The translations under genes and the position numbers were made by a program. Source: Photorhabdus heterorhabditis (GTDB taxonomy: Bacteria > Pseudomonadota > Gammaproteobacteria > Enterobacterales > Enterobacteriaceae). From it: DNA of 64,000 bases. Position 1 is the first letter of the stretch. Every line of letters begins with the position of its first letter. A model generated the notes under the pieces. The model made no database searches. It worked only from the letters and a program-made list of their open reading frames with translations, and was not told where the DNA came from. The stretch is taken from positions 1-64,000 of the forward strand of contig NZ_RCWA01000004.1 of the NCBI RefSeq assembly GCF_018448905.1, given 5' to 3'. This document shows, piece by piece, positions 3,048 to 52,170 of this stretch.

Positions 3048-3059
3048 AGGAGACGAACG

Positions 3060-3733: not shown

Positions 3734-3736
3734 TTT

Positions 3737-3809
3737 ATTGATTACCCTGACGGGGAAACCCGTGAGGGTTAACTCCGTCAGTCATTTTTTTACAACAGGA
3801 GTTAACCCT
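3737..3809 (+). promoter_or_regulatory. Leader 3: terminator stem versus ribosome-binding-site stem
   Basis: CTGACGG (3747-3753) pairs with CCGTCAG (3775-3781) and is closely followed by seven T, a terminator-like hairpin. The overlapping 11-mer GGGTTAACTCC (3766-3776) is the exact complement of GGAGTTAACCC (3798-3808), which contains the Shine-Dalgarno for the ATG at 3810. The two folds share bases 3775-3776 and are mutually exclusive. This is the clearest of the series. Confidence 0.6.
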
Positions 3810-4283: not shown

Positions 4284-4349
4284 TTATTTATCCCCTGGGA
4301 GAGACGACTCCCTGTGGAAGGGTCTCTTCCTTAATTTTAGACAGGAAGG
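4284..4349 (+). promoter_or_regulatory. Leader 4: competing stems over the ribosome binding site
   Basis: GTCTCT (4322-4327) pairs with AGAGAC (4300-4305). The overlapping CTTCCT (4326-4331) pairs with AGGAAG (4343-4348), the Shine-Dalgarno of the gene at 4350. Same logic as the other leaders, with different sequence. Confidence 0.5.
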
Positions 4350-6314
4350 ATGATGACCCTTTATTACCTACCGGATGATATCTGCCGGTTAATAACCCGA
4401 CGTCTTACAGACAGCCTGGAAAGTGGATGGGCGCCCTGGCAAGCGGCCAGTGAGTACGGTTTGCCGCAGCATGCGCTGACCGGACAACCGTTTAGCGGTA
4501 TCAATGTGCTGTTGCTCTGGCAAACTATGTTGCAGCGGCAGCTGATATCTAACCGCTGGTTAACCGGTGATGAGTTAAGAGCGTTAGGCGGATGGGTGGT
4601 CAACGGTGAAAAACCGACAACCATCGTCCGTTACCGGCCTTCAATGTCGCTGATACGTGTTATTAATCTGGAACAATGTGAAGGACTGCCGGCAGAACTT
4701 CAACCCGGTTGTCCTTTACCTCCCCGTCCGGCTCCCGGTTTTGCCGCTGTTCAGCAACTGGTGACGGCCAGTGGGATCCCGGTGGTTCATCGGTCAGGCA
4801 TTGTGCCCGTTTACCGGCCATGGCATGATCGTATTGAGCTGCCTGTCCGGCGGGACTACGTTGAAGATTCACAATACTGGCATGACTTGTTGTATCAACT
4901 GGTTTATGCCACTGGCCATCCGTCCCGGTTAAACCGCTTTGGCCTGACAACCCGAAGTCAGTGGGATGAAGCCCGGGAACAATGGGTGACAGCATTGGGC
5001 GCGGCGTTTGTGGCGGCATTGACCGGTGTTCGGGGTAACCCGGTATATCCGGATAGGGTGGCACCTTGGGTACAGACTTTGGATTCAGATCCGTGGTGGT
5101 TATTTCAGGTGGCTAATGATGCCCGCCGTGCCATGGATTATTTGCAGCACCGAAAGCAACAGTTACCAACCCGTGTAGGGTTGTGGCAACAAATGGCGAC
5201 CGTACTGCTTAGCGAACATTATGGTCTGCCGCTGGATGACACGATGTTGGGATGTGATGCAGTTGTTCAGCGTCATATCGACGGTGGTATCACGCCGCTG
5301 ATGGCTATCAGTGCATTGGCACGAATATACGAGTGGGACCGGCGTGATCAGTCCGAAGGGCGGTTATTCCCGGAAGAATTGGGGCCGGCCAGTGAGGCAC
5401 TGGCATTGTTCTCCAGCCAGCCATCGTATCTGAACTATTATCGGGTACCGGTCACAGAACAGGCTGATACCGATGAACCGGATACGTTATTACAACCTGA
5501 GCGGTTGTCACCGCCGGTGGCGTCTGAGACGGGCAGTGAGGATGAAGATAATGACCCTTATTCTCCTGATGATAATGTGGTGGCGCTGCCATTGGCGGCA
5601 ACTTACCGGGAACCGAATCCACATAAACAGGCTTTTATCAGACTGTTTAACCAGATTGCACCCCATGAAAATCGCTGGCCGGTGTTCTGTGATTTTGTGC
5701 ATATGGCCGCCTGTTCATTGTATAACGCGCTGTTGCAAAATGAGGAATTTGAAGCGGACTATATGCAGCGGGTTAAACGTTATTCCCGTGAAGATGCATT
5801 CCGGCTGAGTCGTTTGCTGAGTGAAGTTATTATGGGTCTGGAGTATGAGGTCGGTGATTTTCTGGGGTCTATTTTTATGGCGCTGGAATTAGGTAATGAC
5901 CAGGCTGGTCAGTATCTTACGCCGTTTCCTGTCAGCCATATGATGGCCAAATTACAGCTGGCTGACGGTTTGCCAATGCTGAAATCCGGTGAGCGTGAAT
6001 ATATCACGGTGTCTGACCCGGCTTGTGGTGCCGGCGGGATGATTATTGCGATGCATCAGGCAATGCTGGAAGCGGGGTTTAATCCTCAGCAGCAGATGCT
6101 GGCGTTTTGTGTCGATATCGACCCGGTTGCCGCGATGATGACGTATATCCAGCTGTCGTTGCTGGGTGTCCCGGCCGTGGTCACGGTGGGCGATTCACTC
6201 ACTCATGTCATGTCTCAGCAAATGGTGACGCCAATGTACCATTTAGGCTGCTGGCAGTTCAAACGTCAGCGTCAGGAAGCTGAAAACGAAATAGCGATGC
6301 GTAAGGCTGGCTGA
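4350..6314 (+). CDS. ArdC-like / adenine-methylase-like fusion protein
   Basis: A 654-residue protein. Residues 1-200 resemble ArdC anti-restriction proteins: an N-terminal SGINVLLLW motif (49-57) and a zincin-like segment ending TGHPSRLNR (188-196). The usual HExxH zinc site is replaced by YQLVY (182-186), so peptidase activity is unlikely. After an acidic linker (about 370-410), residues 425-625 match the SAM-binding part of N-6 adenine methylases, with QYLTP (521-525), DPACGAGG (556-563) and CVDIDPVA (587-594). I find no NPPY/F catalytic motif before the C-terminus, so methyl transfer is doubtful. It may protect incoming element DNA by binding DNA or restriction enzymes; that is inference. 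The start could also be the second ATG. Confidence 0.7.
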   Translation: MMTLYYLPDDICRLITRRLTDSLESGWAPWQAASEYGLPQHALTGQPFSGINVLLLWQTMLQRQLISNRWLTGDELRALGGWVVNGEKPTTIVRYRPSMSLIRVINLEQCEGLPAELQPGCPLPPRPAPGFAAVQQLVTASGIPVVHRSGIVPVYRPWHDRIELPVRRDYVEDSQYWHDLLYQLVYATGHPSRLNRFGLTTRSQWDEAREQWVTALGAAFVAALTGVRGNPVYPDRVAPWVQTLDSDPWWLFQVANDARRAMDYLQHRKQQLPTRVGLWQQMATVLLSEHYGLPLDDTMLGCDAVVQRHIDGGITPLMAISALARIYEWDRRDQSEGRLFPEELGPASEALALFSSQPSYLNYYRVPVTEQADTDEPDTLLQPERLSPPVASETGSEDEDNDPYSPDDNVVALPLAATYREPNPHKQAFIRLFNQIAPHENRWPVFCDFVHMAACSLYNALLQNEEFEADYMQRVKRYSREDAFRLSRLLSEVIMGLEYEVGDFLGSIFMALELGNDQAGQYLTPFPVSHMMAKLQLADGLPMLKSGEREYITVSDPACGAGGMIIAMHQAMLEAGFNPQQQMLAFCVDIDPVAAMMTYIQLSLLGVPAVVTVGDSLTHVMSQQMVTPMYHLGCWQFKRQRQEAENEIAMRKAG

Positions 6315-37870: not shown

Positions 37871-38971
37871 TTAATACAGCCAGTCGCGTCCCATTCGGTC
37901 AGCAGCCAGAATAGCGGCGTACACTTTTTCCGGTGTAACTTCAAAAGGCATGTTGTGAATAGTTTCGCCTTCAGCGCAACTGGCTTTCGCTACTGCCATC
38001 ACTTTTTCTTTCAGTTTTTCGCCGTCTTTCACGCCAAGCTGATCCAGAGTGACAGGTAGCCCTACTTGTACACAGAAATCGAGCACAGTATCTAATTCTT
38101 CATTTGGACTGTTTTCCAACACGAGTTGGACTATTACTCCGAAAGCAACTTTTTCGCCGTGGTACATATGGTGGCACTCTTCCAATACGGTAAAGCCATT
38201 GTGTACGGAATGTGCGGCGGCTATACCTGTATTTTCAAATCCCAGACCACTTAGGTAAATGCTGGCTTCGATAACATTTTCTACCGCCGGCGTACTGACC
38301 CCTGCGTCAACGGCCAATTTTGCTTTATAACCCTCTTCTAACAAGGTTTCGTAACATAGATGGGCAAGAGCCATTGCTGTGCGGGATATCCCGCCACCTG
38401 TCATTCTCGGTTTATGGGCAGTGTTACAGCTGCGGGCTTCAAAATAGGTAGCCAGTGAGTCTCCAATTCCGGCAACCAGAAAGCGGGTTGGTGCTTTGGC
38501 GATAAGAGCAGTATCTACCAGTATAATATCTGGGTTTGTTGGGAAAAAGAGATAATCTTCATATTCGCCATCATCAGTATAAATAACAGATAGAGCACTG
38601 GTTGGGGCATTAGTGGAGGAGATAGTGGGTGCAATTAGAATAGGTAGCTTGGATTCGTAGGCAACCACTTTTGCCGTATCCTGTACTTTACCGCCACCGA
38701 TACCAATAACCGCTTGGCACTCATTTTTTTTTAGAATGTCAGACAGACGTTGAATCTCATTACGGCTACATTCACCACCAAACACTTCAAAATGGCTAGT
38801 AATATCATATTCTTCTAGGCTGTTATGAACGGTATCTCCTACCAATTTCATTGCTGAGTTACCCATAATAACGAACACATGGTCGGCAATGGTTTTTGTG
38901 TATTTACCAATGGAGAGCAGGGCGTCAGGCCCCTGAATATATTTGGATGGGGCTTGGATAACTTTCAGCAT
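37871..38971 (-). CDS. gldA: Glycerol dehydrogenase GldA
   Basis: A 366-residue NAD-dependent, zinc-containing iron-type alcohol dehydrogenase that oxidises glycerol to dihydroxyacetone. The nucleotide site is in IGIGGGKVQDTAK; zinc ligands include the Asp in AGIGDSLATYFEA and the His residues in AAAHSVHNGF and CHHMYHGEKVAFG. Length matches E. coli GldA (367). I took the ATG at 38971 (MLKVIQAPSKYIQG), which matches the family start and has AAGGAG; the frame is open nine codons further. It stands alone between the DUF29 genes and yhhQ. Confidence 0.95.
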   Translation of the reverse strand: MLKVIQAPSKYIQGPDALLSIGKYTKTIADHVFVIMGNSAMKLVGDTVHNSLEEYDITSHFEVFGGECSRNEIQRLSDILKKNECQAVIGIGGGKVQDTAKVVAYESKLPILIAPTISSTNAPTSALSVIYTDDGEYEDYLFFPTNPDIILVDTALIAKAPTRFLVAGIGDSLATYFEARSCNTAHKPRMTGGGISRTAMALAHLCYETLLEEGYKAKLAVDAGVSTPAVENVIEASIYLSGLGFENTGIAAAHSVHNGFTVLEECHHMYHGEKVAFGVIVQLVLENSPNEELDTVLDFCVQVGLPVTLDQLGVKDGEKLKEKVMAVAKASCAEGETIHNMPFEVTPEKVYAAILAADRMGRDWLY

Positions 38972-39197
38972 AGAAATACTCCTTTTGTGGAAATTCAATG
39001 CCTGTTTACCACATAAATTTTCTTGGCAAACAGAGAAACGGGTTTCGAATGAAAAAAGTACTTATTTACTCAACTGGTTAACACTATATGATAAAAAGTA
39101 ATGATCAGTTACGGATAAAAAAACTGTTATACCCGTTTTATAGAGGGAAATGTGCATTTTTTTGATCTACGCCCGATATCTACCGGGCATATAAGGA

Positions 39198-39866
39198 TCA
39201 GCGAACCTGGATATGAGAGTGATCAGCCTGATAAGCAAAAAAGTACTTTAGAATCAAATTCAGTAAAATACCGTAAGCTGGTAGGAAAAATAATAAGCAG
39301 ATTAATAGCTTGAAGCAGTAATCAACTAATCCAATCTCGACCCAGTTTGCGGCCATAAAAGCATCGGTACTGCGGTAAAAGGCAATAAAGAAGAAAGTTA
39401 GAGTATCAAGTAAGTTGCCGAAGAACATTGCCGCTGCTGGGGCAATCCACCAGTTACGTTTTCGCCGCAGACGGTTAAAGACGTAGACATCCAGTACTTG
39501 CCCAAGCAAATAGGCCATAAAACTGGCGCAAGCGATACGAGCAACAAATAGATTGAATTCAGACAACGCAGTGAACCCTTGCCATATTCCCTGAAAAAAC
39601 AGGGCAGAAATAACATAAGAGATCAGTAAAGCTGGGATCATAACGGTGATAATGATTCGTCTTGCAAGTGACGCATGATAGATACGAACAGTTAAATCTG
39701 TTGCAAGGAAAATAAATGGGAAAGTAAATGCTCCCCAAGTGGTATAGAAACCAAAGATAGAAATAGGTAATTGCACCAGATAATTACTGGAAATAATAAT
39801 CAGGATATGAAATAACGAAAGCCAAATCAAAGCAGCTGTTCGCTGTGATGTCGTAAATGAAAGCAT
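39198..39866 (-). CDS. yhhQ: Queuosine precursor transporter YhhQ
   Basis: A 222-residue inner-membrane protein of the vitamin uptake-like (VUT/ECF-like, COG1738) family that takes up 7-cyano- or 7-aminomethyl-7-deazaguanine for queuosine synthesis. About six membrane helices are visible. Characteristic stretches are the TWGAFTFPFIFLATDLTVRIY block and FGNLLDTLTFFFIAF. Length matches E. coli YhhQ (221). It is divergent from tusA, as in E. coli. I checked the leader for a preQ1 riboswitch and could not make a convincing one. Confidence 0.95.
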   Translation of the reverse strand: MLSFTTSQRTAALIWLSLFHILIIISSNYLVQLPISIFGFYTTWGAFTFPFIFLATDLTVRIYHASLARRIIITVMIPALLISYVISALFFQGIWQGFTALSEFNLFVARIACASFMAYLLGQVLDVYVFNRLRRKRNWWIAPAAAMFFGNLLDTLTFFFIAFYRSTDAFMAANWVEIGLVDYCFKLLICLLFFLPAYGILLNLILKYFFAYQADHSHIQVR

Positions 39867-40012
39867 ATTGTACCTTTTTGGATAATGGGGTGAGGGAACC
39901 CAATGAAATACCTGCCGCTTTAACTGACGGCGCCGCGCATGATACGTCGGTTGTACATAAAATCAAGATGCTTGCCTGTAAAGTTCATTTTTGGATAGCC
40001 TTTTTATAATAT

Positions 40013-40153
40013 ATACCTTATGGATTTCAAGATGGATCGCGACGGCAAGGGAGCGAATCCCCGGGAGCAGAGATAACTATGTCATAGAGAACTCTGTGAC
40101 CGGGGTGAGTGAGTGCAGCCAACAAAGAGGCAACTTGAAAGATAACGGGTATA
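40013..40153. repeat. ERIC element, long variant
   Basis: Full TATACC ... GGGTATA element of 141 bases, about 14 longer than canonical because of extra sequence around the centre. It ends 39 bases before the tusA start and so probably lies within the tusA promoter or leader. Confidence 0.88.
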
Positions 40154-40192
40154 ATCAACTTTCATCAGTTGCTTGGAATTACAGAGATAGTT

Positions 40193-40441
40193 ATGCCAGA
40201 TGTTTTTGCCAACCCAGATAAAACCCTTGATACACAGGGGCTTCGTTGCCCTGAGCCTGTGATGATGGTACGGAAAACCGTGCGTCATATGGAAGCAGGG
40301 CAGATGTTACTCATTCTTGCAGATGATCCGGCGACTACACGCGATATTCCCAGTTTCTGCCGTTTTATGGAGCATCAGCTTGTTGCGCAAGAAACGGAAC
40401 AAATGCCTTATCGCTATTTGGTTCGGAAAACAGAGAGTTAA
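40193..40441 (+). CDS. tusA: Sulfur carrier protein TusA
   Basis: An 82-residue cytoplasmic sulfur carrier that passes persulfide sulfur from IscS to TusBCD for 2-thiolation of tRNA wobble uridine. The active cysteine is in [17 protein letters not shown], the CPxP signature. The ATG at 40193 gives [10 protein letters not shown], matching E. coli MTDLFSSPDH; the eight codons upstream to 40169 are excluded on that basis. The ribosome binding site (CAGAGAT) is weak. It lies next to zntA and divergent from yhhQ, as in E. coli. Confidence 0.96.
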
Positions 40442-40530
40442 CTTTGGGCATGAAAGGGATTTATTATTTGTTGATGTAAATGCTCTTGGTAATTGGTTTT
40501 ATTGACTTGGTCTGTGGCAACAAGCCAAGA

Positions 40531-40562
40531 ATATGGGGTAGCTTTTGGGATAAACCCCATAT
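40531..40562. terminator. Hairpin between tusA and zntA
   Basis: ATATGGGGT and ACCCCATAT arms form a perfect stem between the convergent genes. CCTTTA follows on the plus side, so termination strength is uncertain. Confidence 0.55.
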
Positions 40563-40606
40563 CCTTTAAGAAGTTGAGGACTGGCATTAATCGTAAAATG
40601 GTTTTG

Positions 40607-42880
40607 TTATTTCACTTTAATTCTCAGTAACCTTACTGCGTTTGCCGTTACCAGAGCTGTAGCGCCAGAATCAGCTAATACTGCCATCCACAGGCCAGTG
40701 ATACCGAGTAGACTAGTGATAAGGAAAATCCCTTTTAGTCCTAGTGCAATAGCTATATTTTGGCGGATATTATTATGAGTTGCGCGAGACAGGGCGATTA
40801 TTTCTGATAAACCTGTCAGACGGTTGTGGGTCAATGCTGCATCTGCGGTTTCTAATGCAACATCAGTCCCACTCCCCATTGCGACACCGATACTGGACGC
40901 TTTCATTGCTGGTGCATCATTAATGCCGTCACCAACCATCATTGTGCTGTGGTTTTTATTCAATTCCATGATAACGTTGACTTTATCTTCTGGCATTAAC
41001 CCAGCACGGAAATCCATTCCTAACTGACTGGCAATTGCAGTTGCAGCACGTGGGTTATCACCTGTCAGCATCACTGATTTGATACCCTGACTTTTCAGTA
41101 AATGGATGGCATCTATCGCATCTTGACGTAATGTGTCTTGCATAGCGATAAGTCCAATGAATTGCTCGTTATGCATCACGGCAACAACAGTTTTTCCACC
41201 ATCTTCCAACTGAATAATTTTTTGTTTCCAATCATCAGATAAAGTATTCTCCGGCAGCTTGCCCGGTGTACTGACTAAGATGCGTTTACCCTCTAATTGA
41301 CCTTCAACACCGATACCTGCCAGTGCTTTACGATGTTCAGCTTCAATCACATTAACGTTTTTACTTTTTGCATGTTGCAAAATAGCTTTAGCCAGTGGGT
41401 GATGGGAGCCACTTTCCACGGCAGAGGCCAGAGCTAATAGCTGAGATTCACTGATATTCTCCGCTGACTGTATATCAGTGACTTGTGGCTTGCCGGCTGT
41501 CAGCGTACCTGTTTTATCAAAAGCGATAGTTGTGATTCGACCGAGTTGTTCCAGTGCAGCACCGCCTTTAATTAGTGCACCACGGCGGGTTGCTGCAGCC
41601 AGGGCAGAGGTGATTGCGGCTGGTGTAGAAATTACCAATGCGCAAGGACAACCAATTAGTAACAGAGTAAGACCACGGTAGATCCAAGTTTCCCACGGTT
41701 GGCTGAATACAGTAGGTGGAATAATGATAACCAATGCAGAGAACAGCATAATCAACGGAGTATAAATCCGGCTGAAACGGTCAACAAAGCGCTCAATAGG
41801 GGCGCGGCGTTCTTCTGCTTCTTCAATCAGTTGCAGGATGCGATCAATGGCATTGTTACCTTGTTCAGACAATACTTTCATTTGTACTGAACGATCTACG
41901 GACAAACAACCTGCCGGAACTTTTTCTCCCTGCATGCGTTCAACCGGGATGGATTCTCCTGTCAGGGCACTTTCATCAAAGCTGGCGAATGAGTTGAGTA
42001 ATTCTGCATCGGTTGGTAAACGTCCCCCCGGTGCAATTTCAATAATATCGCCAGGGCGAAGATCGGCGACCGGAACAGTTTTTCTTTCACCATTTTTTAC
42101 CAACAGAGCCTCTTCTGGAACTAACGCCATTAAAGCACTAACCCCTCGACGCGCACGGCCAGCAGCATAAGATTCTAGCATTTCACCAAGCATAAACAGC
42201 AGGAGTACCATTGCCGCTTCAGCGGTGGCGTCAATAAACAGTGCACCGATTGCAGCAACGCTCATTAGTGTTTCAATGGCAAATGGTGTACCTGATCGTA
42301 TGAGCTTCCAGGCTTTGCTAACAATAGGTACCAATCCAATCAAGGTGGTGATAATAAAGGCAATGCGGCCAAATGGGGCATTGACATTGGAGATTCCCCA
42401 GCTTAGTAGCATCATCAGTGAAAGAATGGCGATTGGTGCAAATTCTTTCCAGCGGCTGCCTTTTGGTGCTTTCTGATTTGCATTTGGGGTGTGAAGTTTA
42501 AATCCAGCTTGGTTGACAGCTTGGATGACTGTTGAACGTATATCTGTATCGGCATCTACAACCAGTTTTTCAGTTGCAAACAGGACCTTGACTTGTTTCA
42601 CTTCTGGAATTCTTCTGACTGCCGTTTCAATTTTACGTGCACAGCTTGCGCAATCCATACCATTCACAACCCAACTAAAACGCTGGCTTGCCAAAAGCTC
42701 GGGTATCAGTGTTTCTTGTGTATCATGGGAATGACTGTGCTCATGTGAACAGGCCCCATCATGTTTATGTGAATGTTCACTAACATGTTGAGCTTGCTCT
42801 GTGCAGGCGGTAGTCGTACAACAGCTTCCATGATGATGGTTATGTTGATGGGTGTTATTTTTGTTTGAATTTGAGTACAT
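40607..42880 (-). CDS. zntA: Zinc/cadmium/lead-exporting P-type ATPase ZntA
   Basis: A 757-residue PIB-type ATPase that expels Zn2+, Cd2+ and Pb2+ across the inner membrane. The first 55 residues are unusually rich in His and Cys (HNHHHGSCC, HEHSHSHD), a likely extra metal-binding tail. The heavy-metal-associated domain carries GMDCASC (Cys77, Cys80). The membrane metal site CPC is in IGCPCALV, the phosphorylation site is DKTGTLT, and the SHHPLA HP motif and GDGINDAPA hinge are present. A MerR-type operator with a 20-bp spacer lies upstream (42921-42952). The zntR gene is not in the window. Confidence 0.97.
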   Translation of the reverse strand: MYSNSNKNNTHQHNHHHGSCCTTTACTEQAQHVSEHSHKHDGACSHEHSHSHDTQETLIPELLASQRFSWVVNGMDCASCARKIETAVRRIPEVKQVKVLFATEKLVVDADTDIRSTVIQAVNQAGFKLHTPNANQKAPKGSRWKEFAPIAILSLMMLLSWGISNVNAPFGRIAFIITTLIGLVPIVSKAWKLIRSGTPFAIETLMSVAAIGALFIDATAEAAMVLLLFMLGEMLESYAAGRARRGVSALMALVPEEALLVKNGERKTVPVADLRPGDIIEIAPGGRLPTDAELLNSFASFDESALTGESIPVERMQGEKVPAGCLSVDRSVQMKVLSEQGNNAIDRILQLIEEAEERRAPIERFVDRFSRIYTPLIMLFSALVIIIPPTVFSQPWETWIYRGLTLLLIGCPCALVISTPAAITSALAAATRRGALIKGGAALEQLGRITTIAFDKTGTLTAGKPQVTDIQSAENISESQLLALASAVESGSHHPLAKAILQHAKSKNVNVIEAEHRKALAGIGVEGQLEGKRILVSTPGKLPENTLSDDWKQKIIQLEDGGKTVVAVMHNEQFIGLIAMQDTLRQDAIDAIHLLKSQGIKSVMLTGDNPRAATAIASQLGMDFRAGLMPEDKVNVIMELNKNHSTMMVGDGINDAPAMKASSIGVAMGSGTDVALETADAALTHNRLTGLSEIIALSRATHNNIRQNIAIALGLKGIFLITSLLGITGLWMAVLADSGATALVTANAVRLLRIKVK

Positions 42881-43198
42881 GGGCTCCCCCTTACAGAGTT
42901 AATTCACATATGATGACTAAACTCTACACTTTGGAGCCTACTCCAGAGTCAAATAAAAAAGAGAAAATAAATTGGTAAATTGTGCAACTAAGTGTTGACA
43001 CTGATTTTCATCTGCAATATCGGCTTCATGATGCAAAGCTCTTTTGTGAGTGTATTTTTACGTTGAAAAGGTAAATACAGTTATAGTTATTATCCTTGAT
43101 AATATTTTTATTGACTTATTTTTTATTATGTGAAATAAGTGAATTGTTGTGAATTTGTTAATGATATTTATCAATATTCTTGTTTCGGGAGGGGAAAA
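42881..43198. other. zntA / mcc divergent intergenic region
   Basis: Contains the ZntR-type promoter at its left end. The right 200 bases are very AT-rich and mark the edge of the microcin-like cassette; they should contain the mcc promoter, but I cannot fix a -35/-10 pair with confidence. Confidence 0.5.
42921..42952 (-). promoter_or_regulatory. ZntR-type promoter/operator of zntA
   Basis: Read on the minus strand, TTGACT and TAGAGT are separated by 20 bases containing the near-dyad CTGGAGTAGGCTCCAAAG. Over-long spacing with a dyad in the spacer is diagnostic of MerR-family activation, and the bases resemble the E. coli zntA operator. Confidence 0.85.
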
Positions 43199-43222
43199 AT
43201 GATCAGTATCGCTTCTAACTAA
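43199..43222 (+). CDS. mccA: Heptapeptide precursor MISIASN, MccA-like
   Basis: A seven-codon gene, ATG ATC AGT ATC GCT TCT AAC TAA, encoding MISIASN. It has the strongest ribosome binding site in the area (GGGAGGGG, five bases before the ATG). In the microcin C system MccA is the heptapeptide MRTGNAN, and MccB converts its C-terminal Asn to a nucleotide-linked form; this peptide has the same length and the same terminal Asn. A hairpin and then a mccB-like gene follow at once. No other start upstream of the mccB-like gene shows both a Shine-Dalgarno and an Asn-terminated peptide. The assignment rests on context, as the sequence differs at most positions from MRTGNAN. Confidence 0.75.
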   Translation: MISIASN

Positions 43223-43245
43223 TTGCGTCAATAATGATTATGTCT

Positions 43246-43275
43246 TATGCCGTAGAAGATTATTTCTACGGCATA
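43246..43275 (+). promoter_or_regulatory. Intergenic hairpin between mccA and mccB
   Basis: TATGCCGTAGAA (43246-43257) is the perfect 12-bp complement of TTCTACGGCATA (43264-43275) with a 6-base loop. No T-run follows. In the E. coli mcc operon a hairpin in the same place limits read-through and yields abundant mccA transcript; this one probably serves the same end by stabilising or partly terminating the short mRNA. Confidence 0.75.
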
Positions 43276-43304
43276 GTACCGAACATATAAATAGAGGGGG
43301 GGTT

Positions 43305-44360
43305 ATGGTTAAGATTGCTAGATATATTCAAGCTGGAAGGTTTGAATCTGGTGGGATTTTTGGCGTAGGTTCTAATCAAGTACTCATACCACAGAAGAAG
43401 CGATTTGAATCTTTAGTTAAAATCGCTTCTTTTTTAAAAAGAGAAACGGATAGTGATAACCTCTATGAATACATAAAGAATAACGTTAGTGGTGTAAGTG
43501 AGGATGATATAAATTTCTCCCTTTCTCTTTTTAGGGAGAAAAATTCACTGATGAGTTCTTCATATTTTAACTCTGATGATAGGTATAGTAGAAACGTACT
43601 CTATTATCATTACTTAGGTGCTAACTCTAAAGAAGTTCAGGAAAAAATAAGTAAATCAAAAGTTACCATTATAGGATGTGGGGGGATAGGGAATCATATT
43701 TCATATCTTTTGGCGACCTCTGGAGTTGGTACTATATCTATAGTTGATAGTGATATAATTGAGATAAGTAATTTAACTCGGCAAGTCTTATTTTCGGAAA
43801 AAGATGTTAATTTTCTTAAAATTGACATATTAGAAAGAGAGTTATTAAAAAGAAATTCAGAGCTAAATGTAAAGAAGGTGAATTTAGAGATAAAACATAA
43901 GGATGATTTGTCTAAAATAGAAAAATCTGACCTTTTTATTGTATCCGCTGATACTCCATTTGAACTTATTAATTGGGTTAATGATTATTGTTTTGAAAAA
44001 AAACAACCTTATTTAAACGTTGGGTATATAAATGACATATCTGTTATAGGTCCTTTTGTCATTCCAGGAGAAACAGCTTGTTTCAGTTGTTCTAAGGTAG
44101 TGCCTGATTACGCCTGTGATGATGAACTACAAGATAATTTGGCAACAATAAATTCTGATTTCAAAGCTGCTACTTTCCCCAGTGTCAATGGGGTAGCTGC
44201 TTCATATGCTTTTGGGGATGTTATGAAATTCTTAGGTGGGTATGGTGAAATACTTAGCAAGAATAGAAGAATTGGAATTCACTCTCGTAAAATAAAAATA
44301 GAAACACAAGAAATACCTAAAAATGAAAGGTGTAATATATGTGGTCTTCAACCAAAATAA
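43305..44360 (+). CDS. mccB: MccB-like peptide adenylating enzyme (ThiF/E1 family)
   Basis: A 351-residue enzyme, nearly the length of E. coli MccB (350). Residues 1-105 form an N-terminal region without E1 homology, matching the peptide-clamp domain of MccB. Residues 118-310 are the ThiF/E1 adenylation domain: IIGCGGIGN (122-130), SDIIEISNLTRQ (149-160) with the conserved Asp, Asn, Arg and Gln. The structural zinc cysteines are CFSC (259, 262) and CNIC (343, 346). Known MccB uses two ATP to turn the terminal Asn of the heptapeptide into an isoasparagine N-P-linked AMP. Ribosome binding site AGAGGGGGGG. It overlaps the next gene by 22 bases. AT-rich, unlike its chromosomal neighbours. Confidence 0.88.
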   Translation: MVKIARYIQAGRFESGGIFGVGSNQVLIPQKKRFESLVKIASFLKRETDSDNLYEYIKNNVSGVSEDDINFSLSLFREKNSLMSSSYFNSDDRYSRNVLYYHYLGANSKEVQEKISKSKVTIIGCGGIGNHISYLLATSGVGTISIVDSDIIEISNLTRQVLFSEKDVNFLKIDILERELLKRNSELNVKKVNLEIKHKDDLSKIEKSDLFIVSADTPFELINWVNDYCFEKKQPYLNVGYINDISVIGPFVIPGETACFSCSKVVPDYACDDELQDNLATINSDFKAATFPSVNGVAASYAFGDVMKFLGGYGEILSKNRRIGIHSRKIKIETQEIPKNERCNICGLQPK

Positions 44361-45520
44361 TAATAACATATTCTGTTATTTTTAATTCTTTGAGGATGCT
44401 CATTGGCGCTACTTCATCGATTTATCTTTTAAGCAAAGGCGTATCTCTTGTTGATCTTGGTTTAATGAAGACCATGCAGGCCTGCGTTTTTTTTATATTG
44501 GATATACCAACGTCTTATCTTGCTGATAGGATCAGCCGAAAATATGCGATATCTCTTTCTGTCTTCTTTGGTGGAGCTTGGCTTGTTTTAACGGGGGTTT
44601 CATCCCATTTATATGGTTTTTATCTGGCCGAATTTTTTAACGCAATTTCTTTGACGATAATAGGTGGAACATATAATTCATACTTGATTGATGTATATAA
44701 ATCAGAGGGTGGTAAAGACACTCATCGGATACTGGGAATTAACGGTAAATATCATTATATGTCTATGGCTATTGCTGCTATGATTGGCGCTGCAATAGGT
44801 GATATAGGTTCACGATGGATATGGATTCTTGCTGGAATAGGTAGTTTTATATTGATGTTTTTTTCCTTTTTTCTTCCTGAATCAAAGGTTAAATTAGTCA
44901 ATGGGAAAAAATCAGGGTTAATGAATGATATAAAGGAGATATATTCTCTTTTAATTAAAGGGAGTAAAGACTTCTTATTCGTATTTTTCGCTGTCGTTTC
45001 AAATATAGTGTATTTTCAAATATTACTCCAATATTGGCAACCTTATGCTTTTTATGGATTTTCTGGTGGAGTTAAAGGTTCTTTGTCATATGGAATATTA
45101 TTTGTTTTTATTCTTATGTCTCAATCTGTCGCAGGATGGATCATCAGTAAAATCAGTGACAATAGAAAACTGATTTGGTTTGGCTTACTTTTGATGTTTG
45201 TTTCCACAGGAATATGCCTGTTAGGCGGGGAGAGTTATCCATACTTAATACCTGTAGCCTTAATTTTTATGTTTGGTAGTAATCAATATCTAACAATGGG
45301 GCTGAGAGCCGTTTATCATGGCTATTTTGATGCCAGTTTGAGGTCAACATTTGACTCTTTATTATCGACATTTGCACGCTTAATCGTTTTGATACTTTTT
45401 CCGGTGGTTGCATATCTTACGGAAATTTTTGGATGGCAAATAATGTCATATTCACTCATTATTTTGTCTTCAATGGTTATTTATCTTTATGTGTTTAGCC
45501 TGAAATTATCGCTCAGGTAA
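44339..45520 (+). CDS. mccC: MFS exporter, MccC-like
   Basis: A 393-residue major facilitator protein with about twelve membrane segments. The first transmembrane block reads SLRMLIGATSSIYLLSKGVS and the motif-A-like loop is DIPTSYLADRISRKYA, with a LADRISRK signature typical of drug exporters. MccC of microcin C operons is an MFS exporter of about 400 residues placed directly after mccB, as here. The ATG lies inside mccB, with AAAGG nine bases upstream, so the two are translationally coupled. It would export the nucleotide-peptide and, with no other immunity gene visible, may be the only self-protection in the cluster. Confidence 0.82.
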   Translation: MWSSTKIIITYSVIFNSLRMLIGATSSIYLLSKGVSLVDLGLMKTMQACVFFILDIPTSYLADRISRKYAISLSVFFGGAWLVLTGVSSHLYGFYLAEFFNAISLTIIGGTYNSYLIDVYKSEGGKDTHRILGINGKYHYMSMAIAAMIGAAIGDIGSRWIWILAGIGSFILMFFSFFLPESKVKLVNGKKSGLMNDIKEIYSLLIKGSKDFLFVFFAVVSNIVYFQILLQYWQPYAFYGFSGGVKGSLSYGILFVFILMSQSVAGWIISKISDNRKLIWFGLLLMFVSTGICLLGGESYPYLIPVALIFMFGSNQYLTMGLRAVYHGYFDASLRSTFDSLLSTFARLIVLILFPVVAYLTEIFGWQIMSYSLIILSSMVIYLYVFSLKLSLR

Positions 45521-45653
45521 ACACACTAAGGATCTCTTCCAACGCAGAATTAAAATAAGCGGGTGGCTATAAACGAATGGTGGCATCTATTATGCTTATT
45601 TCGTTTTCTCCAGTTTGCTTGTGACTACAAGTGAGCATTTCCCGCTAATTGGT

Positions 45654-45917
45654 TTATTTTTTTAGCTGCTTTTTCTGCATTGCCAATAGCTCAAAGACAC
45701 CAAAAAAGAAAATCTTTGTTTGCATCAAGCCAGAAAGTTTTTGGTCTTTGGGCTGACTGGATTTTAGAAGTAGCATCTGAAATGCATGCATGACTACCGT
45801 GAAAATCATGGCGATATCCATAAAATACTTCAATGGTTTTGGAAATGGATGGATTAGGTTAAATATCAAAAATCCCCAAACGCAGACCATTAATAGTTTT
45901 CCCAGTTGAATAAACAT
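45654..45917 (-). CDS. yhhL: DUF1145 membrane protein YhhL
   Basis: An 87-residue predicted inner-membrane protein of the DUF1145 family, with two or three hydrophobic segments (LGKLLMVCVWGFLIFNL, FMDIAMIFTVVMHAFQ) and a basic C-terminus. The length matches E. coli YhhL (89). It starts 20 bases after the rsmD stop, on the same strand, and the pair is probably one transcript, as in E. coli. Function unknown. The mcc cassette sits just downstream, where E. coli has yhhM and yhhN. Confidence 0.88.
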   Translation of the reverse strand: MFIQLGKLLMVCVWGFLIFNLIHPFPKPLKYFMDIAMIFTVVMHAFQMLLLKSSQPKDQKLSGLMQTKIFFFGVFELLAMQKKQLKK

Positions 45918-45937
45918 CAGTGTGCTCCCAAAGATAA

Positions 45938-46522
45938 TTATGCGGGTAAGTAACGAATATAAAGCCGATATGCGACTTGTCCGGCAACTTTTTCACGATG
46001 AAGTTGCCAGTTAGCAGGAACATCTGCCGCTGCTGATTCGGATTCGGCCTCAACATAGATCCAACTTTTATCGGCTAACCAACCCTGCTGTTCCAATAAT
46101 TTTATGGTTTTGGCAAGCATTCCTTGACGGAAAGGTGGATCAAGGAAAATCACATCACAGGGTGTCCCCGGTTGAGATAAATAGTTTAATGCGCTGTCGT
46201 TAATAATTTCGGCATTTTTGGCGCCGAGAAGAGCCAGATTAGCAGAAAGTTGTTTTGCTATATTTCGTTCATATTCAATAAGTATCGCTTGTTTTGCATA
46301 ACGGGAAAGTGCTTCTAACCCAAGAGCTCCGCTTCCTGCATAACAATCCAGGCAGCGCGCTTCCTGAATCACTGGAGCCAGCCAGTTAAACAGAGTTTCT
46401 CTAACGCGATCTGTAGTTGGGCGTAATCCGGGGCTATTCGGTACAGGCAATTTCCGGCTTCGCCATTTTCCACCAATAAGGCGGATTTGTCCCATAGATT
46501 GTTGTTGTGATTTTTTTGCCAT
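45938..46522 (-). CDS. rsmD: 16S rRNA (guanine-966 N2)-methyltransferase RsmD
   Basis: A 194-residue SAM-dependent methyltransferase that modifies G966 in the small ribosomal subunit. The SAM-binding motif I is LDCYAGSGALGLEALSR, and the catalytic N/DPPF motif reads VIFLDPPFRQG. The N-terminal GGKWRSRKLPVP is typical of the family. The length is near E. coli RsmD (198). It is divergent from ftsY across about 230 bases, as in E. coli. The start follows AAGTTACATAA, a weak ribosome binding site; the second ATG is possible. Confidence 0.96.
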   Translation of the reverse strand: MAKKSQQQSMGQIRLIGGKWRSRKLPVPNSPGLRPTTDRVRETLFNWLAPVIQEARCLDCYAGSGALGLEALSRYAKQAILIEYERNIAKQLSANLALLGAKNAEIINDSALNYLSQPGTPCDVIFLDPPFRQGMLAKTIKLLEQQGWLADKSWIYVEAESESAAADVPANWQLHREKVAGQVAYRLYIRYLPA

Positions 46523-46751
46523 AATTTATGTAACTTAATAATTTGTCATCAGATAAACCGATAACGTACTTTTAAAGGTGCCATGAAAGTGTCGAATAAG
46601 AAAAGACTTGTTAAACTTTGCTGGCGTTAATTTACCACGGAATTCGTGATTGATATGTGTTGCGTTACTATGAAAATGTTAGACTGCATCTAATTTCGTT
46701 ATTATTCACTGTTATAACGCCATGATTTAACCTTGAGGAGTGTAGTGGCTG

Positions 46752-48221
46752 ATGGCAAAAGAGAAAAAAAGAGGCTTTTTCTCCTGGTTCGGGCGTGGTC
46801 GTCAGGAAGAACAGCAAAAAGAAGAACAATTGGCCGTAGAGCAAGCGGAACAACAGCGTCTTGCTGAGGAAGCGGCAAGATTAGCCGCAGAGCAGGCAGA
46901 ACAACAGCGTCTTACTGAGGAAGCGGCAAGATTAGCCGCAGAGCAGGCAAAGCAACAGCGTCTTGCTGAGGAAGCGGCAAGATTAGCCGCAGAGCGGGCA
47001 GAGCAACAACGTCTTGCTCAGGAAGCGGCAAGATTGGCCGCAGAACAGGCAGAGCAACAGCGTCTTACTGAGGAAGCGGCAAGATTGGCCGCAGAACAGG
47101 CAGAGCAACAGCGTCTTGCTGAGGAAGCGGCAAGATTAGCCGCAGAGCAGGCAGAGCAACAGCGTCTTGCTGAGGAAGCGGCAAGGTTAGCCGAAGAGCA
47201 GGCAGAGCAACAGCGTCTTGCTGAGGAAGCGGCAAGGTTAGCCGCAGAACAGGCGGAACAGCCAAAGCCAGTTGTATCAAAGGAACAGGAACGCCCGACT
47301 AAGGAAGGATTTTTCACGCGTTTGAAACGTAGTTTGGTTAAAACTCGTCAAAATCTAGGGTCCGGTTTTCTCAGCTTGTTCAGTGGTAAAAAGATCGATG
47401 ATGATCTATTCGATGAATTGGAAGAACAATTGTTGATTGCTGATGTTGGTGTCGATACTACTCGCAAAATCATTGGCAGCTTGACGGCCCATGCTAGCCG
47501 TAAAGAGCTGAAAGATGCGGAAGCGTTGTATGCCAAATTAAAAGAAGAGATGTCTGGTATTCTAGCTAAAGTTGATAAGCCACTGGATATTGAAGGAAAA
47601 ACACCGTATGTCATTCTGATGGTTGGTGTTAATGGTGTTGGTAAAACTACAACGATCGGTAAATTGGCACGTCAGTTTCAGGCACAAGGTAAATCTGTCA
47701 TGTTGGCGGCTGGGGATACTTTCCGTGCAGCCGCAGTTGAACAGTTACAGGTGTGGGGGGAACGCAATCATATTTCTGTGGTAGCGCAACATACCGGTGC
47801 TGATCCGGCTTCTGTGATTTTCGATGCTATGCAATCAGCTAAAGCTAAAGGTGTAGATATATTGATTGCAGATACCGCAGGCCGTTTGCAAAATAAATCT
47901 CACTTGATGGAAGAGTTGAAGAAAATTGTTCGGGTGATGAAAAAACTGGACGAAGATGCTCCACATGAAATTATGCTGACATTGGATGCCAGTACCGGTC
48001 AGAATGCGATAAGTCAGGCTAAACTGTTCCATGAAGCGGTTGGGCTGACAGGTATCTCATTGACAAAATTGGATGGTACTGCCAAAGGTGGTGTGATTTT
48101 CGCCATTGCTGATCAGTTTGAAATTCCTATCCGTTATATTGGTGTTGGTGAAGGCATTGAAGATCTACGGCCATTTAAGGCAGACGACTTTATAGAGGCT
48201 CTTTTTGCCCGAGAGGATTAA
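46752..48221 (+). CDS. ftsY: Signal recognition particle receptor FtsY
   Basis: A 489-residue GTPase that docks SRP-ribosome complexes at the inner membrane for co-translational insertion. The N-terminal MAKEKKRGFFSWFGRG is the membrane-targeting amphipathic start. Residues 30-165 are eight near-perfect 17-residue repeats (EQAEQQRLAEEAARLAA), replacing the usual irregular acidic A domain. The NG domain follows: GVNGVGKTTTIGKLA (P-loop), DTAGR, TKLDGTAKGG. GAGGAG lies 11 bases before the ATG. It heads the ftsY-ftsE-ftsX operon. Confidence 0.97.
   Translation: MAKEKKRGFFSWFGRGRQEEQQKEEQLAVEQAEQQRLAEEAARLAAEQAEQQRLTEEAARLAAEQAKQQRLAEEAARLAAERAEQQRLAQEAARLAAEQAEQQRLTEEAARLAAEQAEQQRLAEEAARLAAEQAEQQRLAEEAARLAEEQAEQQRLAEEAARLAAEQAEQPKPVVSKEQERPTKEGFFTRLKRSLVKTRQNLGSGFLSLFSGKKIDDDLFDELEEQLLIADVGVDTTRKIIGSLTAHASRKELKDAEALYAKLKEEMSGILAKVDKPLDIEGKTPYVILMVGVNGVGKTTTIGKLARQFQAQGKSVMLAAGDTFRAAAVEQLQVWGERNHISVVAQHTGADPASVIFDAMQSAKAKGVDILIADTAGRLQNKSHLMEELKKIVRVMKKLDEDAPHEIMLTLDASTGQNAISQAKLFHEAVGLTGISLTKLDGTAKGGVIFAIADQFEIPIRYIGVGEGIEDLRPFKADDFIEALFARED
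46839..47246 (+). repeat. Eight in-frame 51-bp repeats in ftsY
   Basis: Eight consecutive 51-base units encode the 17-residue unit with few substitutions (Thr for Ala, Arg or Lys variants). High similarity at the DNA level suggests ongoing expansion and contraction. The predicted product is a long, charged alpha-helix. Confidence 0.93.
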
Positions 48222-48227
48222 TTACCG

Positions 48228-48893
48228 ATGATTCGCTTTGAACAGGTCAGTAAAGCTTATCTGGGGGGACGACAAGCCCTGCAAGGGGTGAATTTTCATT
48301 TGCGTCCTGCGGAAATGGCATTTTTGATTGGTCACTCAGGAGCAGGTAAAAGTACCTTGCTGAAACTCATCTGTGGTATTGAGCGACCAAGCGCTGGACA
48401 TATCTGGTTTGCAGGTCATGATATCAGTCGGTTAAAAAGCCGTGAAGTTCCTTTCCTCCGCCGTCAGATTGGTATGATCTTCCAGGATCATCACCTGCTG
48501 TTGGATCGAACGGTATACGATAATGTAGCAATGCCACTTATCATTTCTGGTGCGAGTTCTGAAGATATCCGTCGCCGAACTTCTGCTGCATTAGATAAGG
48601 TTGGTTTACTGGACAAAGCGAAGAATTTCCCGATTCAACTCTCGGGTGGTGAGCAGCAACGTGTTGGCATTGCCCGTGCGGTTGTGAATAAGCCGACTGT
48701 TTTATTGGCGGATGAACCAACAGGTAACCTTGATGGTGAGTTGTCAGAAGGCATTTTGCGGCTATTTGAAGAATTTAATCGGGTAGGGGTAACAGTGCTG
48801 ATGGCGACTCATGATATGGCACTGATTGATAGGAGAAAATATCGTATTCTGACGCTGAGCCAAGGCCGTATGACGGGGGAGCATCATGGTTAA
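48228..48893 (+). CDS. ftsE: Cell division ATP-binding protein FtsE
   Basis: A 221-residue ABC ATPase that, with FtsX, couples the divisome to peptidoglycan amidase activation. Walker A is [11 protein letters not shown], the signature is [14 protein letters not shown] and Walker B is [12 protein letters not shown]. The length is near that of E. coli FtsE (222). It begins six bases after ftsY and its 3' end overlaps ftsX by 8 bases, indicating a translationally coupled operon. Confidence 0.97.
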
Positions 48894-49860
48894 AAATGTG
48901 CGTAAGGTCGCAGGAAAAGTAACAAGATCGAAAAGCAAAACTCTGCTAGGGGGATGGCGTGAACAATGGCGTTATGCTTGGATGAATGCACTGACCGATA
49001 TGCTGCGTCAGCCGCTGGCAACTTTGCTGACGATTATGGTTATTGCGATTTCTCTGACATTACCCAGCGTTTGTTACATTGTATGGAAGAACGTTAGCCA
49101 GGCTGCGGAAAAATGGTACCCTACTCCGCAATTGACGGTTTATCTCGATAAATCACTAGATGATAACAGCGTCCAGAAATTGATAAGTGAACTGAAAGCG
49201 CTCGATGGGGTGGATAATGTTAATTATCTTTCACGCCAGGAAGCCATGACCGAGTTTCGTACTTGGTCTGGTTTTGGCAGCGCTCTGGATATGTTGGAAG
49301 AGAATCCATTACCCGCTGTTGCTATCATTACACCGAAAATTGATTTCCAGAGTTCACAGACTCTGACGACATTGCGTGACAGCGTTTCTCAGGTCAAAGG
49401 CATTGAAGAAGTTCGGATGGATGACAGCTGGTTTGCTCGTCTGGCGGCGTTGACGGGCCTTGTCGGTCAAATTGCGACAGTGATCGGTATTCTGATGGTA
49501 GTGGCATTGTTTTTGGTCATCGGTAATAGTGTACGCCTCAGTATTTTCAGTCACCGTGATACGATTAATGTGATGAAGTTGATTGGTGCAACTGATGGTT
49601 TTATTTTGCGTCCATTCCTTAATGGTGGTGCTTTGTTAGGGGGACTTGGGGCAATTTTGTCATTAATACTCTCTGCCTTATTGGTGTGGAAGCTCTCTGA
49701 TGTTGTAACACAGGTTGCCAGCGTGTTTGGTACGACGTTTAATTTATATGGACTTTCATGGGATGAATCCTTATTGCTAGTTCTTATCTCTGCCATGATT
49801 GGTTGGGTAGCCGCTTGGCTAGCGACAACTCAGCATTTGCGCCACTTTACGCCAGAATAA
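48886..49860 (+). CDS. ftsX: Cell division protein FtsX
   Basis: A 324-residue inner-membrane partner of FtsE that activates EnvC and its amidases at the septum. It has a basic cytoplasmic N-terminus ([22 protein letters not shown]), a first membrane span ([22 protein letters not shown]), a periplasmic domain (about 80-195) and three further spans. This layout is that of FtsX. The ATG lies inside ftsE. The length is somewhat shorter than E. coli's 352, mostly at the N-terminus; a further upstream start is not available in frame with a ribosome binding site. Confidence 0.96.
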
Positions 49861-50072
49861 AGTTACTTGCATAAATATAAAACAATCTGTTATTTTTTGT
49901 TCCGTAACTTCACAGTGGATATTGTCTGTACTGAAATTATGACTACTTCGCGCATCTGTAACTTGAATATGCACATTCTGGTGATAGACTGTACCGCTGT
50001 GTGTTGAGCATTAGTTCATATACACTGATGTAATCTATCCTAACGATTTGAGCCTTATTTGAGAGGATTTGA

Positions 50073-50930
50073 ATGGCCAAAGAAATGCAAACCTTAGCGT
50101 TAGTTCCTCAAGGAAGTCTAGAGGGCTATATCCGCGCCTCTAATACCTATCCGATGCTGACAGCAGAGGAAGAGAAGGAACTGGCTGAAAGGCTGCATTA
50201 CCAGGGAGATCTGGATGCAGCTAAGAAGCTGATTCTATCTCACCTGCGCTTCGTTGTTCATGTCGCTCGCAGCTATGCTGGTTATGGTTTGCCTCAGGCA
50301 GATTTAATTCAGGAAGGGAACATTGGCTTGATGAAAGCAGTACGTCGTTTTAACCCGGAGGTGGGGGTACGTCTGGTTTCTTTTGCTGTTCACTGGATTA
50401 AAGCTGAAATCCATGAGTATGTGCTGCGTAACTGGCGTATTGTAAAAGTTGCAACAACTAAAGCGCAGCGTAAGCTGTTTTTCAATCTGCGCAAAACTAA
50501 ACAGCGTCTGGGTTGGTTCAATCAAGACGAAGTGGAGATGGTTGCCAAAGAACTTGGTGTAACCAGTAAAGATGTACGTGAGATGGAATCTCGTATGTCA
50601 GCGCAGGATATGGCATTTGATATGTCTGCCGATGATGATAATCAGGAAGGGCAGCCGGTTGCTCCTGTTCTGTATCTTCAGGATAAAGCGTCTGATTTTG
50701 CAGACGGCATCGAAGAGGACAACTGGGAAAACCATGCTGCTGATAAATTATCAGTGGCAATAGAAGGTTTAGATGAGCGCAGTCAGGATATTATCCGTTG
50801 TCGCTGGTTGGATGATGATAATAAATCTACCTTGCAAGAACTGGCTGATAAGTACGGTGTTTCTGCTGAGCGCGTACGTCAGCTTGAAAAAAATGCCATG
50901 AAAAAACTGCGGGTAGCGATTGAGGCGTAA
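50073..50930 (+). CDS. rpoH: Heat-shock sigma factor RpoH (sigma-32)
   Basis: A 285-residue RNA polymerase sigma factor for heat-shock genes, including the groESL promoter in this window. Region 2 reads [33 protein letters not shown]; the RpoH box [10 protein letters not shown] is present, and region 4 ends [15 protein letters not shown]. The length is near E. coli (284). GAGAGGATTTG precedes the ATG. In E. coli the 5' mRNA acts as a thermometer; the first codons here (GCCAAAGAAATG) resemble that region, but I have not folded it. A terminator follows. Confidence 0.98.
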
Positions 50931-50964
50931 ATAAATTTAATGTCTTTATAATGAGTAAGTTAAA

Positions 50965-50991
50965 GGGCGATAATGATTTATCGCCTTTTTT
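50965..50991 (+). terminator. rpoH terminator
   Basis: GGCGATAA and TTATCGCC arms with a 3- to 4-base loop, followed by six T. Confidence 0.92.
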
Positions 50992-51030
50992 GTTCCTATT
51001 TTTCAGTGCCTTCAACCCTGAGTGAATCGT

Positions 51031-52170
51031 ATGAAAATTGTGATTGCACCTGATTCATTTAAAGAAAGTCTCAGTGCTTCGCAGGTCGCTGAAGCAATAG
51101 AACAGGGATTTCGTGAAATTTATCCACAAGCCGAATATATCAAATTACCCATGGCTGATGGTGGTGAAGGAACGGTTGAATCAATGGTAGCAGCCATGAA
51201 TGGGCAGGTTATCCATCTGTCTGTTACTGGGCCGTTAAATCAGCCAGTGGATAGCTTTTTCGGTATTCTGGGTGATGAAAGAACGGCTGTTATTGAAATG
51301 GCCGCCGCTTCTGGCTTACATCTGGTTCCAATGGAAAAGCGTAATCCACTGATAACCACGACTTATGGTACAGGTGAGCTGATACTGGCTGCTTTAGATA
51401 AAGGTGTCAGAAAGATAATTTTGGGGATTGGGGGCAGTGCGACTAATGATGGTGGTGCCGGTATGATGCAGGCACTGGGGGTTCATCTGCTTGATATTAG
51501 TGGTAAAGAACTCAAGGCTGGAGGTGCAGCATTAAGCCAGCTTGCTGAAATTGATCTCTCTGGTTTGGATTCCCGTTTGAGTCATACTGAAATTATCGTC
51601 GCCTGTGATGTGATTAACCCGCTATGTGGTAAGTTGGGTGCATCGGCTATTTTTGGTCCCCAGAAAGGGGCGACACCAGAGATGGTGAAAGAGTTAGATG
51701 CTGGTTTACGTCATTATGGTGAAAAAATTGAATTCTTGACAGAAACCAGGGTCATGGATGTACCCGGTGCAGGAGCAGCAGGTGGTATGGGGGCTTCTTT
51801 ACTTGGTTGGCTGAACGCTAAATTGCAACCGGGAATTGATATTGTTATCTCCACTCTAAAGCTGGAAGAAGCACTACAGGGGGCTAATCTGGTTATTACT
51901 GGCGAAGGTCGGATAGACAGCCAGACTATTTATGGTAAAACGCCAATTGGTGTTGCCCGTATCGCCAAAAAATATGCCATCGCAACTATTGCATTGGTTG
52001 GCGGTATGAGTAAAGACTACAGTATTGTTCATGATCATGGATTGGATGCTGTTTTCTCAATTATGCCCGGCGTTTGTTCTCTTTCTGATGCTCTTGCTTG
52101 CGGGCATGAAAATTTACGAGTGACTGCCCGCAATGTGGCTGTTGTCTGGAAAATGGGTCAATTAGAGTAA
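51031..52170 (+). CDS. Glycerate kinase (GlxK/GarK family)
   Basis: A 379-residue cytoplasmic enzyme that phosphorylates D-glycerate to 2-phosphoglycerate. It begins MKIVIAPDSFKESLSA and contains MADGGEGTVE, LGIGGSATNDGGAGMMQALG and GPQKGAT, all hallmarks of the GlxK/GarK family. I chose the ATG at 51031 over a GTG at 51022 because the family starts at MKIVIAPD; the ribosome binding site is weak (CCTGAG). Whether it corresponds to GlxK or GarK cannot be told from sequence. Its 3' end overlaps the convergent panM gene by 13 bases. Confidence 0.93.
   Translation: MKIVIAPDSFKESLSASQVAEAIEQGFREIYPQAEYIKLPMADGGEGTVESMVAAMNGQVIHLSVTGPLNQPVDSFFGILGDERTAVIEMAAASGLHLVPMEKRNPLITTTYGTGELILAALDKGVRKIILGIGGSATNDGGAGMMQALGVHLLDISGKELKAGGAALSQLAEIDLSGLDSRLSHTEIIVACDVINPLCGKLGASAIFGPQKGATPEMVKELDAGLRHYGEKIEFLTETRVMDVPGAGAAGGMGASLLGWLNAKLQPGIDIVISTLKLEEALQGANLVITGEGRIDSQTIYGKTPIGVARIAKKYAIATIALVGGMSKDYSIVHDHGLDAVFSIMPGVCSLSDALACGHENLRVTARNVAVVWKMGQLE

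Follow-up and report, generated by a model that had tools for sequence, protein, structure and literature searches.

Microcin C-type antibiotics start from a short peptide encoded by mccA, and the available part of PMC6495379 describes these precursors as mostly 7 amino acids (aa) long, with Met and Asn at their ends. For E. coli, that paper also states that ribosome binding on mccA induces termination at the hairpin that follows. Minimal mccABC sets are known and are expected to suffice, according to PMC6495379 and PMC9239234. Here, we analyzed 64,000 nucleotides (nt) of Photorhabdus heterorhabditis DNA (contig NZ_RCWA01000004.1, positions 1 to 64,000, hereafter the window), in which a three-gene block lies between zntA and yhhL. 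Very probably, this block is a minimal mccABC operon whose product would be an adenylated heptapeptide, a Trojan-horse antibiotic similar to microcin C, the activity being predicted by homology. As in the E. coli microcin C7/C51 operon (MccC7-H22, NC_010257.1), we observed a seven-codon mccA with a strong Shine-Dalgarno sequence (SD) and a terminal Asn, a hairpin, an MccB-type enzyme (45% identical) and a major facilitator superfamily (MFS) pump, in the same order. Unlike the E. coli operon, the Photorhabdus one is chromosomal, at zntA-yhhL, encodes MISIASN in place of MRTGNAN, adjoins no mccD, mccE or mccF, and has a pump 26% identical to that of E. coli. The same three functions are found in the minimal mccABC clusters of other bacteria, where precursors are likewise mostly of 7 aa in the sections available of PMC6495379 and PMC9239234. 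Neither MISIASN nor Photorhabdus as a host genus was found in the microcin C-type literature searched, in so far as it was available, and Table S1 of PMC6495379 may list Photorhabdus. One review covers both Photorhabdus and MccB, and its Photorhabdus passage that we saw deals with lumicins.

A compact mccABC operon in P. heterorhabditis

The SD GGGAGGGG (43187-43194) and mccA were read directly from the forward strand, on which all elements of the operon lie. The SD stands 4 bases ahead of the start codon of mccA (43199-43222, ATG 43199 to TAA 43222), the seven-codon precursor gene encoding MISIASN, with Asn last. Separated from the mccA stop codon by 23 nt, a 12-bp intergenic hairpin (43246-43275, arms 43246-43257 and 43264-43275, 12/12 pairs) is the putative counterpart of the E. 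coli mccA-mccB terminator hairpin. It is followed by mccB (43305-44360), encoding a predicted E1/ThiF-type peptide adenylyltransferase of 351 aa, and by mccC (44339-45520), which overlaps the end of mccB by 22 nt and encodes a predicted MFS exporter of 393 aa (PF07690, 3.4e-18), the putative dedicated export pump of the operon. An earlier note on this DNA had described a 7-codon frame with its SD, a 12-bp hairpin, an E1/ThiF open reading frame (ORF) and an overlapping MFS ORF, in an AT-rich block between zntA and yhhL, and all of this was recovered. The G+C content was 29-36% in the operon (500-nt windows starting 43000-45250) and 38-55% well outside it, within 38000-52000. One neighbor is ZntA (NF008262); the other is a DUF1145 protein (PF06611/NF008158), yhhL by position, followed by a Cons_hypoth95 gene, rsmD by position. 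By sequence, no element of the operon, from mccA through the hairpin and mccB to mccC, is disrupted in the window strain. A sigma-70 promoter scan found 13 candidates compared to 14.4 expected from shuffles, and we claim no promoter.

The mccA frame has the features of an mcc precursor, being short, of the usual 7 aa, with Met first, Asn last and a strong SD. When the 424 nt upstream of mccB were shuffled with dinucleotides preserved, a 7-codon ATG frame ending in Asn was obtained in 79 of 3000 shuffles if the SD was ignored and in 0 of 3000 if it was included.

The enzyme groups with MccB

The earlier note had taken the enzyme for an MccB and had named a phylogenetic position outside MccB as contrary evidence; both the search scores and the phylogeny place it with E. 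coli MccB and not with MoeB/ThiF. A phmmer search against PDB sequences returned three MccB on top (8.6e-94 to 2.4e-93; 316.5-317.9 bits), the next being a MoeB at 65 bits. In a tree of 11 proteins, the enzymes of the window, of a second Photorhabdus genome (G300), of E. coli and of Borrelia nietonii formed one clade (99/99), separate from the window genome's own MoeB/ThiF-type proteins, two of which are joined by the only other well-supported fork. In this tree, which did not include PaaA, the split B. garinii enzyme or any broken mccB copy, the Borrelia row is long-branched; the fragment rows own_L003 and own_L006 had been dropped beforehand. The window enzyme is an E1-like nucleotidyltransferase of the MccB clade with an N-terminal extension. 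The alignment with a characterized MccB, which the earlier note had proposed, gave 157 identical columns out of 348 with the MccB of the E. coli MccC7-H22 plasmid, and 96/175 over residues 86-260. The GCGGIGNH (P-loop), NLTRQ and VSAD motifs and four cysteines in two CxxC pairs are all kept; their roles in MccB come from structural work. A single-sequence structure prediction (P0001) reached a mean predicted local distance difference test score (pLDDT) of 33.8 and was not used. The same genome holds a further fragment of an MccB-like ThiF protein, 32% identical and with an internal stop (L003, G000:C3:191636-192301).

A search for relatives outside Photorhabdus matched, at 1e-30, two of the 295 genomes of the family, namely the window itself and a congener. 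Among 369 genomes of the class, the window itself was the one match at 1e-35, and on plasmids 38 of 72,556 records matched at 1e-20, all below 60% identity. On spirochaete plasmids we also observed MccB-like and MFS genes preceded by seven-codon frames that run from Met to Asn and have an SD (MRGKTLN, MLGKNFN), in Borrelia nietonii lp89 (L075, about 2850-5180) and Borreliella garinii lp25 (L074, about 2830-5175); the B. garinii MccB-like enzyme is annotated as two ORFs.

Two operon types, their alleles and their hairpins in Photorhabdus

The genus comparison covered 13 Photorhabdus genomes. The operon or its remains occupy zntA-yhhL in six of them: the window, P. khanii (G138/L009), P. thracensis (G304/L010), P. 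tasmaniensis (G303/L011), P. australis (G297/L012) and G296. Two genomes (G299, G300) carry a second-type mcc operon and five carry neither type. All seven genomes without the first type have a 208-aa ORF at the zntA-yhhL site; the one tested was YhhN (PF07947) and the others are near-identical to it by eye, so that the mcc operon occupies the place that yhhN has elsewhere in the genus. The P. tasmaniensis contigs split the site: the operon lies on one and the yhhL end on another, and a piece of a decayed MFS gene adjoins yhhL. The second operon differs in locus but resembles that of the window in its own hairpin, its MISSGSN peptide, its MccB (56% identical) and its MFS pump (46%). Its mccB is intact in G300 and frameshifted in G299. 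Its neighbors in G300 (L071 3843-12771) are several paralogues of a lipase, the one tested being Lipase_3, and, by eye, rhlE/dusC-like genes; a GNAT gene lies directly downstream of the pump there.

Searching the other genomes for the same 7-codon frame, as the earlier note had advised, we found it in relatives, either identical or with differences in codons 4-5. The alleles at zntA-yhhL are MISIASN (window, P. khanii and P. thracensis), MISMTSN (P. tasmaniensis) and MISIVSN (G296); in P. australis the start codon is lost and the SD changed. A comparable SD is kept in 5/6 alleles of this locus in the alignment, and the five open alleles have no indels in the frame and nonsynonymous differences confined to codons 4-5. 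Ser stands at position 3 in every Photorhabdus allele seen, and the form M-I-S-x-x-S-N recurs at the second locus. Loss of the frame with the enzyme kept, which the earlier note had named as contrary evidence, was not seen; the reverse was, the frame surviving in four of the five relatives with a broken mccB at this locus.

The window hairpin was more stable than shuffled sequences (z -2.45), 9 of 500 shuffles being equally good. Each of the seven operons folded, that of E. coli among them, has a hairpin between mccA and mccB (z -2.45 to -5.00, 500 shuffles each), and the stems of the P. khanii, P. thracensis and P. tasmaniensis copies differ solely by changes to G-U pairs. A terminator-like stem with a T-run inside the start of mccB (43395-43437) was considered as a second signal and dropped, as its stem is, by eye, disrupted in P. 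tasmaniensis.

Exchange of the operon between species

In the flanks (38200-48200 outside the block), the window was 86-98% identical to P. australis and G296, mostly 90-96%, and 72-94% identical to P. khanii, P. thracensis and P. tasmaniensis, mostly 82-91% (82-93% for P. thracensis). Within about 42950-45700 (borders approximate, 250-nt resolution), where aligned, identity was 95-100% to P. thracensis, 90-99% to P. khanii, 86-95% to P. tasmaniensis and 84-96% to P. australis and G296. Between the window and P. thracensis, synonymous divergence was 0.51 in rsmD and 0.043 in the pump, a low value that is not explicable by protein constraint. The operon block has thus evidently been exchanged between Photorhabdus lineages, with borders just outside the operon. 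The species nearest to the window by flank have mccB deleted, and the window copy is intact and of the thracensis/khanii type. Farther downstream, the N-terminal part of an ftsY-like ORF (46752-48221) contains 8.4 copies of a 51-bp tandem repeat (46829-47254, 93% matches), and similar repeats are visible by eye in related genomes.

Loss of mccB beside open pumps

Among the eight carriers, mccB was intact in two (window and G300) and broken in six by distinct lesions. Besides the frameshift in G299, these are an in-frame stop at codon 30 in P. khanii (a draft genome) and deletions with differing end points in P. thracensis, P. tasmaniensis, P. australis and G296. The G296 deletion carries a repeat-like insert (by eye). 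A dispersed repeat-like sequence resembling this insert also seems, by eye, to occur upstream of a tusA-like ORF in the window (about 39991-40221) and beside yhhN in G301 (further handles L020 and L058). A full-length open pump ORF is present in 8/8 carriers, and the four genomes with deletions retain the 3' end of mccB, the site of the pump start. Next to the full-length pump, P. tasmaniensis carries two additional pump fragments that have decayed, one covering residues 276-393 (L069) and the other residues 94-144, with a stop (L070). By gene length alone, the chance that all six lesions hit mccB and spare the full-length pump is 0.011, a figure computed after the pattern was seen and assuming independent lesions.

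The ratio of nonsynonymous to synonymous substitution rates (dN/dS) of the pump was 0.08-0.22 for the 15 pairs at zntA-yhhL and 0.20 for the second-locus pair. Among the mccB remnants, that of P. thracensis had no synonymous change over the 136 codons compared, and the other four gave dN/dS values of 0.00-0.21. The losses of mccB look recent, because the remnants have barely decayed. The low pump dN/dS might be taken to prove selection following the loss of mccB; we rejected this, since with such recent losses the ratio may predate them. Selective retention of the pump is plausible, though not proven.

Self-protection and related pumps

The full E. coli-type cluster (mccABCDEF) was not found here, mccD, mccE and mccF being absent from the neighboring ORFs (MccD was checked there only). 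Elsewhere, the search for standalone immunity covered relatives of MccF, MccG and MccE. MccF had no protein match in the 13 Photorhabdus genomes (a comparison without a positive control) and no match there by PF02016, with which the E. coli control matched. S51 enzymes (MccG-type, PF03575) had no match in the window genome, the E. coli control again matching, and gave matches over the cut-off in P. khanii and P. thracensis. MccE had partial, standalone relatives only, in 13/13 genomes, each with a GNAT (197-aa frame) matching about residues 481-581. A further GNAT, in the window, G297 and G296, matches MccE residues 419/420-587 (31% in the window). In the window genome this further GNAT is G000:C3:48165-48710; it scores 48.5 bits against the RimL model, below the cut-off of 184, and is present in 3/13 genomes, the window and its two nearest by flank, a distribution explained by shared descent. 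RimL is reported to confer microcin C resistance in the parts available of PMC6795089 and PMC10926693. The acetyltransferases related to MccE and RimL are candidates for immunity in the window genome.

The pump has relatives on plasmids of Pantoea agglomerans, one of which was inspected (NZ_CP134735.1, L089 2308-5131). The pump there is related to E. coli MccC (24% over 180 columns), and directly upstream of it lies a gene for a 531-aa fusion of a GNAT with a class II Asp/Asn/Lys-tRNA-synthetase or asparagine-synthetase-A-like domain. A tblastn search with the window and E. coli MccB gave no match in the 9-kb stretch of this record. The fusion and the pump are possibly a resistance-only set against an Asp-adenylate mimic; another reading is a different antibiotic cluster.

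Discussion

The gene set, its homology, the kept motifs, the hairpin, the conserved peptide form and the movement of the block between species are seen directly. From the characterized E. coli system, we infer adenylation, export, ribosome-dependent termination and the target. By that analogy, a short transcript ending at the hairpin would let the ribosome repeatedly make formyl-MISIASN; MccB would activate the terminal Asn and link adenosine monophosphate (AMP) through a stable N-P bond, and MccC would export the product. A sensitive bacterium would then trim the peptide, and the resulting aspartamide-adenylate would block aspartyl-tRNA synthetase. The different uptake and target range that the earlier note proposed for the MISIASN product are pure conjecture.

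Another origin of the enzyme, as an E1 protein of a MoeB/ThiF/HesA or PaaA-type pathway next to an accidental 7-codon frame, has a next to negligible probability. In its favor, Pfam and NCBIfam give only generic ThiF/MoeB names, all of the NCBIfam matches listed (25 of 26) being below cut-off. Against it, the enzyme falls short of the cut-offs of the housekeeping models (TIGR02356 ThiF, 109 bits for a cut-off of 275; NF004281 MoeB, 99.8 for 266), scores and tree favour MccB, a frame with an SD did not arise in the 3000 shuffles and the same frame form stands at the second locus. PaaA, the pantocin A enzyme, is also E1-like with an N-terminal recognition domain, according to the available part of PMC12250964, but scored 61 bits against 318 for MccB with the window enzyme as query of the PDB sequences. 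A peptide-cytidylate of the Yersinia/Bacillus type in place of a peptide-adenylate seems quite improbable. E. coli MccB accepts several nucleoside triphosphates in vitro, as the same part of PMC12250964 reports; however, the precursors of that type are longer (PMC6495379), and its MccB carries an extra, carboxymethylating domain (PMC12250964). Here, with a 7-aa precursor and an enzyme that has the ThiF domain only and lacks this second domain, we infer AMP and not modified cytidine monophosphate.

It is rather unlikely that the operon is decaying in the window strain, with an intact sequence from which the active product is no longer made and a pump that merely hitch-hikes. The broken mccB of 5/5 other genomes at this locus and of 1/2 at the second one, together with the two decayed pump fragments of P. 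tasmaniensis, are in favor of decay. By contrast, every element is intact in the window strain, dN/dS of mccB between the window and P. khanii is 0.14, and the block was recently exchanged with a thracensis-like lineage. Several further observations weigh against an active microcin C-like operon. Since all five relatives sharing the zntA-yhhL operon have lost mccB, it may be unimportant, or silent in the window strain too; its expression, product and activity are predictions, and it has no linked immunity gene. The hairpin lacks a U-tract and was not listed by the terminator scan, although that of E. coli likewise lacks one, and none of the seven folded hairpins is followed by one (by eye). 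The N-terminal, peptide-binding part of MccB (residues 1-85) is just 15/82 identical to that of E. coli; specificity for MISIASN is assumed, and the divergence would fit a different peptide. The pump is distant from E. coli MccC (E 6e-15 in a single comparison), and on plasmids the genes that it matches best lack mcc linkage, with six records from Pantoea agglomerans (~30%, up to 145 bits) outscoring E. coli MccC (59 bits). Finally, variable columns in the five alleles amount to 6/24 in the mccA frame, 23/100 upstream (plus 8 gap columns) and 8/24 downstream; the frame is not clearly slower-changing than its flanks and is supported by its form, not by slower change.

A minimal mccABC operon, with predicted activity, is our preferred reading, and its history in the genus, with two operon types, interspecies exchange and recurrent recent mccB loss beside an open pump, is the more interesting part. 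We tentatively propose, as a possibility that we would not yet favor, that mcc acts as a mobile antibiotic-plus-resistance cassette. It would be exchanged at zntA-yhhL and repeatedly lose mccB while mostly keeping mccA, together with the mccB 3' end and the pump, which would shield non-producers from the peptide-nucleotides of their neighbors, so that producers and resistant non-producers would coexist. If this is true, MccC-type pumps are also expected in resistance-only settings, and the Pantoea agglomerans plasmid pair may be one of them.

Overall, the peptides MISIASN, MISMTSN, MISIVSN and MISSGSN would join the microcin C-type antibiotics as a Photorhabdus family. PMC9239234 asks whether bacteria with three-gene mcc operons rely on standalone enzymes for their own immunity, and the minimal Photorhabdus operon bears on this question. 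The broken synthesis genes beside open pumps offer a natural test of protection by the pump alone.

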